Of a stretch of DNA of 53,317 bases, positions 3,207-45,221 are shown in pieces (within the stretch, counting starts at the first letter, position 1; every line of letters starts with the position of its first letter). The position numbers and the translations under genes were made by a program. A model generated the notes under the pieces. The model made no database searches, was not told the DNA's origin, and worked only from the letters and a program-made list of their open reading frames with translations. The stretch is from Clostridia bacterium (lineage in GTDB: Bacteria > Bacillota > DSM-521 > Neomoorellales > Neomoorellaceae), in contig JASKKH010000013.1 of assembly GCA_030154265.1 (NCBI GenBank), positions 1-53,317 on the forward strand, given 5' to 3'.

Positions 3207-3437
3207 CTATTGAATAATCTCCACCACTACACGTTTACCTTGATGTGAAGCAGCGGCTTTCACTAAAGTACGTATTGCTTTGGCAATTCTTCCTTGTTTA
3301 CCAATTACCTTACCCATATCCTCTTGTGCTACTCTCAGTTCAATGATAACTGATTTTTCTCCTTCTACCTGGTTAACACTGACCTGTTCTGGGTAATCTA
3401 CAAGTGCTTTGGCCAGGGTTAATACCAGCTCTTTCAT
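3207..3437 (-). CDS. khpA: KH-domain RNA-binding protein KhpA (YlqC)
   Basis: A 76-residue single KH-domain protein. The RNA-binding GxxG loop is visible in GKVIGKQGRIAKAIR (about 47-61). Homologues pair with KhpB/Jag and influence cell-division mRNAs in Gram-positive bacteria; that role is family knowledge, not shown here. The ATG follows TAGGAGG. It lies between rpsP and rimM, the standard position. Confidence 0.93.
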   Translation of the reverse strand: MKELVLTLAKALVDYPEQVSVNQVEGEKSVIIELRVAQEDMGKVIGKQGRIAKAIRTLVKAAASHQGKRVVVEIIQ

Positions 3438-5598: not shown

Positions 5599-6540
5599 CT
5601 AAACCATTCTGATGGCAAACTGAGGGCAGACTTTAGTACAGTAACCGCAAAGGAGACATTTTTCTGAGTTAATCTTAGCTTTGCCATTTTCCAAGGATAT
5701 AGCTTGATTAATACAGGCATCTACACAGGCCCCGTCTCCTAAACAAAGGCTTTGTACTATTAAAAACTTTTTTGAGCTACTCTGGACTTCTCCCGGAAAT
5801 TTACCACTAAAGTACTGGATATTATAATCTACTTCTTGCTCACTAATCATACCAACAGCAATAGAAGCAACACCTGGCACACTCCTGGCAAAATCCATTG
5901 CTTCACGATATTTGCGTATCAAATTACCTCCAGCTAAAGTTTTCATAAGATATATACCTTTACCGGCAGATGCAGCTTGAGCAATTGCTGCTTTCATATC
6001 TTCAGGGCCACCACCAATAATACCCATGCCTTCTAGATTTAACAACGGAAAAACAACATCAATATCCTTTAAAGTTGCAGCTTTCTTCACAACTTCGACT
6101 GAATGAGTAGCAATACCTACAGCTCCAATTTTTCCTCTTATTTTTGCTTCTAATAAACACCGTATGGCTTCTGCCCGTTCTTCAAAAACATGTACTGTAC
6201 CTTTAGCTGCATGCAGAAGAAAAATATTAATGTGTTTTAAATCCAGCTCTTCTCTAGCCTCTTCAATAGCTTCTTTCATACCATTATAAGTTGTAGCAGC
6301 TGACTTTGTTGCAATTACCAAATTTTTAGTATCATATCCTTTTATTGCTTCCTTAATAATCCAATATGTTTCGTATAATTGAGCTGTATCAATAAAATTA
6401 ACTCCTCCGTTGAAGGCCCTTCTCATTATCCTTACACATGTATCCACATCAAGATTTTTTTGCCTAGGTCCCATTGGTAAAGTTCCAAAACACAGTTCTG
6501 AAACTTTCATCCCTGTTTGTCCGAGCTGCCGGTATTGCAT
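5599..6540 (-). CDS. Aldo/keto reductase with C-terminal ferredoxin-like domain
   Basis: An NADPH-type aldo/keto reductase barrel of about 250 residues fused to a two-cluster ferredoxin tail. The catalytic tetrad is visible: D51 (FIDTAQLY), Y56, K79 (IATKS) and H110 (FLLHAA). In the tail the second motif is canonical (C295xxC298xxC301xxxC305P). The first reads C266-L-G-D269-G-A-C272-V-D-A-C276, so an Asp replaces the second Cys (CxxDxxCxxxC). The substrate is unknown; the family includes electron-transfer-linked oxidoreductases of anaerobes. It follows mtaD by 16 nt and interrupts the usual ftsY-ylxM order. The Shine-Dalgarno (GGGGG) is somewhat far from the ATG. Confidence 0.87.
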   Translation of the reverse strand: MQYRQLGQTGMKVSELCFGTLPMGPRQKNLDVDTCVRIMRRAFNGGVNFIDTAQLYETYWIIKEAIKGYDTKNLVIATKSAATTYNGMKEAIEEAREELDLKHINIFLLHAAKGTVHVFEERAEAIRCLLEAKIRGKIGAVGIATHSVEVVKKAATLKDIDVVFPLLNLEGMGIIGGGPEDMKAAIAQAASAGKGIYLMKTLAGGNLIRKYREAMDFARSVPGVASIAVGMISEQEVDYNIQYFSGKFPGEVQSSSKKFLIVQSLCLGDGACVDACINQAISLENGKAKINSEKCLLCGYCTKVCPQFAIRMV

Positions 6541-25555: not shown

Positions 25556-26107
25556 TTAACCTCCTGCTTTTTTATAAAAACTCAAAGCTGTATCTCCGTA
25601 AACTCTTTTAGAAAACATTTTGATTCCATTAATCTCAGAGGGTTTTTCTTTAACTGAGGTTTCCATAATAATCAATCCATATGGTAATAATAAATCATTA
25701 ACTGAGGGTAAAATAACATCTCCCCATCCTTTGGAATAAGGGGGATCAACATACACTAAATCAAAAAGTATATCCTTTTTTTTTAAATGTTCTAATGCCC
25801 TTCTGGCATCCGCGGCAATTACCAAACCTTTTGCTTTAAAATTAGTACTCATCAAATTAGAATTAAGACATTTTAAAGCTAGTTTATTATTCTCAATAAA
25901 GACAGCTTTTTTAGCTCCTCTACTTAAAGCTTCTAATCCAACTGCTCCCGAACCCGCAAAAAGGTCCAAGAAAATACTATCAATAACTCTGGAGCCTAAA
26001 ATATTAAATAAAGCTTCCCTAACTCTATCAGTTGTAGGTCTAGTAATTCGACCTTTTGGAGTACGTAAAGGATGCCCTCTTACTTCACCTGCTATTATTC
26101 GTAACAT
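25556..26107 (-). CDS. rsmD: 16S rRNA (guanine966-N2)-methyltransferase
   Basis: Methylates G966 of 16S rRNA. It starts MLRIIAGEVRGHPLRTPKG with the family's RPTTDRVREALFNIL, the SAM-binding FLDLFAGSGAVGLEALSRGA, and the catalytic VYVDPPYSKG. The ATG at 26107 has GAGGG upstream; the frame extends 14 codons further without a ribosome site. It is 183 residues. In many Firmicutes coaD follows rsmD, but here it is replaced by the coiled-coil gene. Confidence 0.93.
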   Translation of the reverse strand: MLRIIAGEVRGHPLRTPKGRITRPTTDRVREALFNILGSRVIDSIFLDLFAGSGAVGLEALSRGAKKAVFIENNKLALKCLNSNLMSTNFKAKGLVIAADARRALEHLKKKDILFDLVYVDPPYSKGWGDVILPSVNDLLLPYGLIIMETSVKEKPSEINGIKMFSKRVYGDTALSFYKKAGG

Positions 26108-26196: not shown

Positions 26197-26227
26197 TTTA
26201 CATAAATTTGTTTTTAACATGTATAAT
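26197..26227 (+). promoter_or_regulatory. Promoter of the candidate small RNA
   Basis: On the plus strand TTTACA (26197-26202; five of six matches to TTGACA) precedes a perfect TATAAT (26222-26227). The spacing of 19 nt is longer than ideal. The predicted start is near 26234. Confidence 0.5.
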
Positions 26228-26233
26228 TTTTAC

Positions 26234-26408
26234 CTAAAACATCCATAATATAAACGGCAAAGCTAATTACTAGTTTTGCCAGAAGAGCTTAGGGTTATTT
26301 TATTAACCCTCCCCCATGAGCTCTTCCTCCGGTTTCTCCTCTCCCAAGCCACCGGTTACCCGCCGGTGGCTAAAATTTGGTCGTTCAATTGGAACGACCT
26401 TTTTTTTT
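26234..26408 (+). ncRNA. Candidate regulatory small RNA with CU-rich loops
   Basis: About 175 nt on the plus strand, between divergent rsmD and convergent trxA. Four hairpins can be drawn. H1 is 26256-26280 (10 bp with one G-U). H2 has outer arms GAAGAGCT/AGCTCTTC (26282-26289, 26319-26326) enclosing GGGTTA/TAACCC. H3 is GCCACCGG/CCGGTGGC (26348-26370). H4 is the terminator. The stretches left unpaired are CU-rich: TCCCCCAT at 26310-26317 and CTCC...TCTCCTCTCCC at 26327-26345. These could pair with Shine-Dalgarno sequences, as C-rich loops of Gram-positive sRNAs do. It does not look like 6S, SRP, tmRNA or a riboswitch I know. No supporting ORF exists here. Confidence 0.6.
26379..26408 (+). 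terminator. Terminator of the candidate small RNA
   Basis: A perfect 8-bp stem GGTCGTTC / GAACGACC with a 5-nt loop and nine consecutive T on the plus strand. No plus-strand protein gene lies upstream for it to terminate, which is the main argument for a small RNA. Confidence 0.85.
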
Positions 26409-26445
26409 AAAAAAAATTAAGAGGGTTTTTTAATAACCCCCTTAA
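26409..26445 (-). terminator. Terminator of trxA
   Basis: An 11-bp stem with one G-U pair (26417-26427 / 26435-26445), followed on the minus strand by eight Us (26416-26409). It sits back to back with the plus-strand terminator, so trxA and the small RNA converge. Confidence 0.85.
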
Positions 26446-26456
26446 TTTTATTTGGT

Positions 26457-28155: not shown

Positions 28156-28590
28156 TTATTGCTGTAATCCACCCTGGAAGCCTTGCTGTTGTAAACCTTG
28201 GGTCATACCCTGCTGTGCTCCCAACATACCGGTGGACTGAGCATCAAATTGCTGAGCATTAAGGTTTAATTTCTGGCCACTGACATTGTTTTGGGTAGGA
28301 ACTGGTCCACTAATAGCCCCGGTAACATTCTGAGCGGCACCTAGTTCTACATCCTGACCACCAAGGCCGCCAGCCTGTTGCTGCTGTTGACTAAGAGAGT
28401 TTTCATAAGCAGCAATCATCTTTTTGACCATTAATCCTCCAACAGAGCCGTTAACTTTAGAAGGTAGGTCACCAAGATAGCCCTGATAATTCTGGATACC
28501 CAGTTCAGTAGCAACTTCTTGTTTAAACCTATCCATGGAAGCTCTTGCCTGAGGAATTAATAGTTTGTTTGTTCTCTGGCCACCTGCCAT
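28156..28590 (-). CDS. Alpha/beta-type small acid-soluble spore protein with long Gln-rich tail
   Basis: Residues 8-66 are a SASP domain, opening NKLLIPQARASMDRFKQEVA. The GPR cleavage site is E25-V-A-T-E29 (family form E-I-A-x-E), and the second DNA-binding stretch is GDLPSKVNGSVGGLMVKKMI. SASPs coat spore DNA and protect it from UV. Here about 78 further residues follow, rich in Gln, Gly, Asn and Ala; a normal SASP is 60-75 residues in all. The ATG has AAGGAGGTGA upstream. A good sigma-G promoter precedes it, and gpr is its convergent neighbour. The role of the tail is unknown. Confidence 0.9.
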   Translation of the reverse strand: MAGGQRTNKLLIPQARASMDRFKQEVATELGIQNYQGYLGDLPSKVNGSVGGLMVKKMIAAYENSLSQQQQQAGGLGGQDVELGAAQNVTGAISGPVPTQNNVSGQKLNLNAQQFDAQSTGMLGAQQGMTQGLQQQGFQGGLQQ

Positions 28591-44153: not shown

Positions 44154-45221
44154 TTAAAATACCTCCTTTCTATACCGCAACTGTCCACAGGCAGCATTTA
44201 AATCTTGTCCCCGACTTTTCCTAACAGCAGCTTCTATTCCTGCCTTTCGTAACCATCCCTCAAAAATATAAGCCTTTTTATCAATTGAACCCCTAAAGTT
44301 ACTACCTTTGATAGGGTTTAAGGGAATTAAGTTAACAAAAGCTAGCATTCCTTTTAAAAGCTCAGCTAATCTTAAAGCATCCTGTTTACTGTCATTGATA
44401 TTAGCAATTAAAACGTATTCAAAAGTTACCCGCCGACCCGTTTTTTCACTATAAAATTTACATGCCGGAATTAACTTCTCTAATGGATAACGCTTATTGA
44501 TTGGCATTAATCTATTTCTTAATTCGTTTGTTGTGGCATGAAGAGAAATAGCAAGTTCTAAGGGAGGTTCTTCCTTTGACAGCTCTAAAATTTTAGGAAC
44601 AATCCCACAAGTAGAAATTGTAATCCTTCGATGACTTATGCCCCATCCTAAAGGATCTTCAAAAATGCGGACAGCCTTCAAAACAGCTTCATAATTAAGT
44701 AAGGGCTCCCCCATACCCATAAAAACAATATTACTTAGGCGTTGGTTGTTTCCATTTACATTGGTTTTATTTTTCTCTAGGAGAGAAACAGCCTGAAGAA
44801 CAATTTCCCCAGTACTAAGATTACGATAAAATCCCCCTTTGCCAGTAGCACAAAAACTACATCCCATGGCACAACCTACCTGACTTGACAAACAAGCAGT
44901 CTGCCGTCTTCGACCATTGTCATAGGACATGAGTACACATTCCAACAGTTGGCCATCCTCAAGGGAAAGGAGCACTTTTTGGGTCAAGTTATCATTGGAT
45001 ACCAATCTTTCTTTGACCTCAACAGACGTCAGTTTAGTAGCTTCCGCTAATTTTTTTCGAAAATCTTTTGGTAAATCTGTCATTGCCTCAAAACTAGTAA
45101 TTCTACGCCCATGAAGCCATTTAAAAATTTGCTGACCCCGATAGGGTTTTTCTCCTAGCTGTTCAGCCAAATCTTCCAATTCTTGTAGTGATAATCCCCG
45201 TAAATCTATTTTAGACTCCAT
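44154..45221 (-). CDS. rlmN: Dual-specificity rRNA/tRNA adenine-C2 methyltransferase RlmN
   Basis: A radical-SAM enzyme that makes m2A2503 in 23S rRNA and m2A37 in tRNA. The cluster cysteines are C117, C121 and C124 in VGCAMGCSFCATG. The C-terminal methyl-carrier Cys is in LNAACGQLRYR. The length of 355 residues is typical. The ATG has GGGGATT upstream. It is between rsmB and the FHA genes; a 74-nt gap precedes it. Confidence 0.97.
   Translation of the reverse strand: MESKIDLRGLSLQELEDLAEQLGEKPYRGQQIFKWLHGRRITSFEAMTDLPKDFRKKLAEATKLTSVEVKERLVSNDNLTQKVLLSLEDGQLLECVLMSYDNGRRRQTACLSSQVGCAMGCSFCATGKGGFYRNLSTGEIVLQAVSLLEKNKTNVNGNNQRLSNIVFMGMGEPLLNYEAVLKAVRIFEDPLGWGISHRRITISTCGIVPKILELSKEEPPLELAISLHATTNELRNRLMPINKRYPLEKLIPACKFYSEKTGRRVTFEYVLIANINDSKQDALRLAELLKGMLAFVNLIPLNPIKGSNFRGSIDKKAYIFEGWLRKAGIEAAVRKSRGQDLNAACGQLRYRKEVF

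Follow-up and report, generated by a model that had tools for sequence, protein, structure and literature searches.

A copy of csfG, encoding a forespore small RNA, with a predicted sigma-G type promoter beside rsmD in a Clostridia bacterium

What does the gap between rsmD and trxA encode in the 53,317-nt stretch of DNA from a Clostridia bacterium analysed here (hereafter, the window; contig JASKKH010000013.1)? A sequence-only reading had described, in this gap, a plus-strand unit of about 175 nt with a TATAAT promoter, three hairpins (H1-H3), two CU-rich stretches and a terminator with nine T, and had taken it for a small regulatory RNA whose layout belonged to no known family. The hairpins, both CU-rich stretches and the terminator with its nine T are all present; the promoter, the length and the novelty of the unit have to be revised. 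The element is almost certainly this genome's copy of CsfG, a small RNA (sRNA) of the forespore of endospore formers that is under the control of sigma-F and sigma-G. CsfG is already known, its original description in Bacillus subtilis being, reportedly, that of Marchais et al. in 2011; what is new here is the corrected promoter and the form of csfG in this Clostridia-type lineage.

The csfG gene, present in one copy in the source genome, spans positions 26256-26408 of the plus strand, on which all its parts lie, and is predicted to yield a transcript of ~150 nt, with the start placed by the -10 box. H1, the 5' hairpin (26256-26280), is variable in sequence and was not seen in all relatives. 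H2 (26282-26326), with the stem GAAGAGCUUA / UGAGCUCUUC, contains a nested stem, AGGGUUA/UAACCCU (26291-26310), which leaves CCCCCAU (26311-26317) unpaired. The conserved 34-nt core, CCCCATGAGCTCTTCCTCCGGTTTCTCCTCTCCC (26312-26345), is directly followed by H3 (26347-26371), the stem sequence of which is freely swapped with the hairpin retained, and then by the intrinsic terminator (26379-26408), an 8-bp stem at 26379-26399 and nine T at 26400-26408. The CU-rich stretches of the plus strand are TCCCCCAT (26310-26317) and CTCCGGTTTCTCCTCTCCC, which ends at 26345; in the predicted fold, two C/U-rich segments of the RNA, both taken in by the core, stay exposed: the loop region of H2 has CCCCCAU, and CUCC..UUUCUCCUCUCCC lies between H2 and H3. 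The region folds at -67.4 kcal/mol compared to -33.2 +/- 3.7 kcal/mol for shuffled sequences (z -9.2). The trxA gene is oriented against csfG, as noticed earlier, and has an inverted repeat of its own at 26409-26453.

At the Rfam gathering scores, the only match in the whole window is an FMN riboswitch elsewhere (RF00050, 36057-36172, minus strand, 118.7 bits), with none at csfG. In the E-value mode, the full RF00516 model ("ylbH leader") matches the minus strand of the element at 38.7 bits (E 7.4e-7), below the gathering score of 50. With E 0.01 as the limit, the same model matches 42 of the 61 genomes searched and recovers B. subtilis as the positive control; it passes the gathering score in only 1 of the 61. 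The sequence-only reading had stated that a hit to an RNA family already known would speak against it; RF00516 is such a hit, filed on the other strand. RF00516 represents the same DNA element as csfG, but its model describes the complementary strand and treats the element as a cis leader. The location is that of CsfG as well: rsmD, which is the same gene as ylbH, lies on the minus strand (25556-26107; TIGR00095, 163.7 bits) as the divergently oriented gene by which the csfG locus is recognised, and csfG itself is on the plus strand. The conserved CU-rich stretches of CsfG are placed in terminal loops and interhelical regions in the relevant part of PMC3574147, and those of the window copy are found in a terminal loop and between helices. 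The window copy and B. subtilis CsfG also share the ylbH/rsmD neighbour on the opposite strand, a forespore sigma promoter, an intrinsic terminator and a spore-former host. Structurally, the window copy departs from the RF00516 model in having H1 as an additional 5' hairpin and, inside H2, an insertion with the nested stem. The naming of this RNA varies, CsfG being equated with S547 in the pertinent text of PMC8216469, whereas that of PMC9147052 lists CsfG and S547 (Bvs196 homolog) apart.

The putative promoter of csfG is of the sigma-G type (26221-26250, plus strand), with the -35 element GTATA (26221-26225), an 18-nt spacer and the -10 element CATAATA (26244-26250), and would serve a forespore sigma factor (F and/or G). 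The TATAAT at 26222-26227 that had been read as the promoter overlaps the -35 of this site and is not a likely -10; hence the RNA would start near 26256 and be ~150 nt rather than ~175 nt long. The sigma-G promoter pattern has 3 matches in the 53-kb window, compared to 0.3 expected per window under a first-order Markov model. One of the other two, the sigma-G-like GCATA-N17-CATACTA (28651, minus strand), precedes a gene for an alpha/beta small acid-soluble spore protein (28156-28590), the kind of gene that sigma-G would be expected to control. Another GTATA-N18-CATAATA (45267, minus strand) lies ~46 nt upstream of a 355-aa, rlmN-like frame (44154-45221) and may be due to chance. Whereas the promoter of the window copy is sigma-G type in appearance, B. 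subtilis csfG is reported to be controlled by both sigma-F and sigma-G, according to the passages of the citing papers that touch on this point (PMC3574147, PMC8216469, PMC9147052).

The name of RF00516 implies a different RNA, namely, a cis-acting 5' leader of rsmD/ylbH on the minus strand, akin to an orphan riboswitch. The Rfam consensus was indeed built on the rsmD strand, on which most loci have rsmD downstream of the element, but the signals of transcription are on the other side. Of 155 loci, 60 have a sigma-G-like promoter upstream of the core when the csfG strand is read and 4 when the opposite strand is read; for the strict form, the counts are 34 and 0. Of 144 loci, 130 have a terminator 3' of the core on the csfG strand, compared to 28 with one on the opposite strand. 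Wobble pairs point in the same direction: read on the csfG strand, the alignment contains 29 G-U cells and 6 A-C cells, and these 29 cells would become mismatches on the rsmD strand. Folding energy does not separate the strands, that of csfG being the more stable in 60 of 144 loci. In the published Northern blots, as presented in the part of PMC3574147 devoted to the B. subtilis ylbH element, RNA was seen from the reverse strand only, as CsfG, and went undetected as a ylbH leader. Given the promoters, terminators, wobble pairs and blots, we regard the leader as highly improbable. The complement of the core (26312-26345, minus strand), GGAGGAAGAGCTCATG, looks like a ribosome binding site with an ATG after it, a resemblance that may have favoured the interpretation as a leader in published work.

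The structure of the CsfG RNA is borne out by covariation, for which the sequence-only reading had suggested looking in the stems. Across 13 family members, 95.6% of the pair cells are standard and 10 pairs are changed on both sides, with a covariation score above those of all 500 shuffles and all slid versions of the alignment. Within this family, H1, H3 and the terminator covary; compensatory changes affect 3 of the 10 pairs of H1, and H3 has A-U in the window copy where the relatives have G-C. Both arms of H2 are invariant in the family, so covariation is silent for or against this helix. RNAalifold on a wide alignment was of little use, since the variable stems had been misaligned by MAFFT, and the covariation figures come from the narrower family alignment instead. 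Of 147 loci, 127 have the middle segment of the core predicted to pair with sequence upstream of it, and 137 have a hairpin arm that begins no more than 12 nt past the core. A frame of 44 aa is open from 26276, which could suggest a small protein; but conservation in this region has no codon pattern, with all core positions fixed, and the flanking stems vary freely in length and sequence between loci, leaving this possibility with next to no probability.

The core, CCCCATRAGCTCTTCCTCCGGTTTCTCCTCTCCC, shows little or no variation over 147 loci ranging from Clostridia to Bacilli. This count is partly biased because many loci were recovered by a pattern that fixes some of the positions; the loci recovered with RF00516 carry the same core. 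A pattern scan of named genomes found at least 117 stretches, and the matches listed come mostly from Bacillus, Paenibacillus, Brevibacillus, Alicyclobacillus and Clostridia MAGs. The genomic neighbourhood is conserved as well: 139 of 155 loci have a divergently oriented rsmD, nearly always right next to the core; the remaining loci are mostly near the end of the fetched stretch or lack an rsmD match. Some genomes contain more than one core: Paenibacillus alkalitolerans (L087) has two, ~2.8 kb apart (3413-3436 and 6260-6283), and G068 and G123 have two exact matches each. The core is also present beside rsmD in MAGs titled Acetobacteraceae (L103) and Desulfovibrio (L104), bins that are probably mislabelled or contaminated.

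The core is associated with sigma-G. Among 199 genomes of the phylum, 91 of the 171 with sigma-G contain the core compared to 1 of the 28 without (Fisher p 2e-7), where the core was sought with one mismatch allowed and the sigma-G gene at E 1e-100, and a few of the 92 pattern matches may be due to chance. The sole exception, G195, encodes a C-terminal sigma-G fragment of 71 residues, and the missing full-length gene may reflect an assembly break. Within this set, and with this one exception, the core is confined to genomes with sigma-G, as expected of CsfG, an RNA of endospore formers. About half of the genomes with sigma-G lack the core by pattern, so CsfG is either not universal in spore formers or more divergent in some of them. 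In one 1.4-Mb genome that retains csfG, the sigma-G match is broken up over several frames, with a TAG (G002:C22:3017-3769), which is either a broken gene or an assembly error.

How might CsfG act? As the best explanation of the whole, we consider probable a scenario in which sigma-G RNA polymerase would transcribe csfG in the late forespore from GTATA-N18-CATAATA, divergently from rsmD, and would stop at the terminator (26379-26408); the ~150-nt RNA would fold into H1-H2-H3-terminator with the two C/U-rich segments exposed; and these segments would pair with Shine-Dalgarno (SD) regions of forespore mRNAs, possibly together with Hfq, and block ribosome loading. Forespore expression in the source organism is suggested by the promoter sequence, and the entire step of pairing with target mRNAs is one that we infer. 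Given that the RNA is CsfG, SD blocking is probably its main mechanism. RoxS, reportedly, blocks ribosome loading on ppnKB by pairing with the SD region. Among the sRNAs of Firmicutes, those that block SD sequences typically have C-rich segments exposed, according to PMC8216469 and PMC4409812, which also draw for CsfG the likeness to RsaE/RoxS that the sequence-only reading had drawn for this unit. That part of the proposal, an sRNA with exposed C-rich segments, stands; membership in the RoxS/RsaE family does not. RoxS/RsaE and FsrA share with csfG the exposed C-rich segments able to pair with SD sequences, a resemblance in the way of working, but differ in locus, promoter control and structure, and the RoxS/RsaE family model in Rfam gave no match to csfG either at gathering or with E up to 10.

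The target prediction that had been proposed supports SD pairing in part. Against 51 window genes, the C/U linker of csfG pairs more strongly with translation starts than with gene interiors (-12.8 compared to -7.9 kcal/mol), but shuffled C/U linkers of the same composition bind the starts almost equally well (z -1.1). The gpr gene is sixth in the SD-pairing ranking of these 51 genes, which is not evidence on its own. A search of 18 relatives for a long conserved target complementary to the core yielded, besides csfG itself, only imperfect matches (2-3 mismatches) with no recurrent place seen. The probe GGAGGAAGAGCTNATGG exceeded its backward control in most genomes, as a strong SD-like sequence should, with no evident conserved target among the matches listed. 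Since the shuffled linkers do almost as well and the 18 relatives yielded no further conserved site complementary to the core, SD pairing accounts for the composition of the core but not for its fixed sequence.

This leaves room for a mechanism in which CsfG mainly binds or titrates a protein or the translation apparatus of the forespore, with the core as the binding site and mRNA pairing secondary. The near invariance of the core across Bacillota, including helix arms where compensatory change would be free, speaks for such a contact, as do the lack of a second conserved complementary site in the 18 relatives and an SD affinity explained by composition alone. Two Hfq-family genes are present in the source genome (G000:C16:4063-4242 and G000:C17:5837-6016; 105.5 and 67 bits). 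Association of CsfG with Hfq by co-purification in B. subtilis, described in the part of PMC3574147 concerned, also fits. In the other direction, we know of no protein partner of CsfG besides Hfq, the exposed C-rich segments are characteristic of the Firmicutes SD-blocking sRNAs cited above, and many weak mRNA targets could fix a short core too. We therefore treat a contact of this kind as a minority possibility and retain SD blocking as the preferred mechanism.

Few sRNAs of spore formers are as widely conserved as CsfG, and papers from 2021 and 2022 state, in the passages that deal with it, that no target is known (PMC8216469, PMC9147052). The strand evidence assembled here supports correcting the strand of RF00516 in Rfam, which matters for genome annotation, and the window copy shows the form and the likely promoter of CsfG in a Clostridia-type lineage. 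The constraint on the 34-nt core poses a testable question. Extending beyond SD pairing, this constraint could reflect a contact between CsfG and a partner in the sporulating cell that is universally conserved, either a protein or the ribosome; we suggest, quite tentatively, that it could be a general regulator of forespore translation or of RNA chaperone activity rather than a regulator of a few mRNAs.
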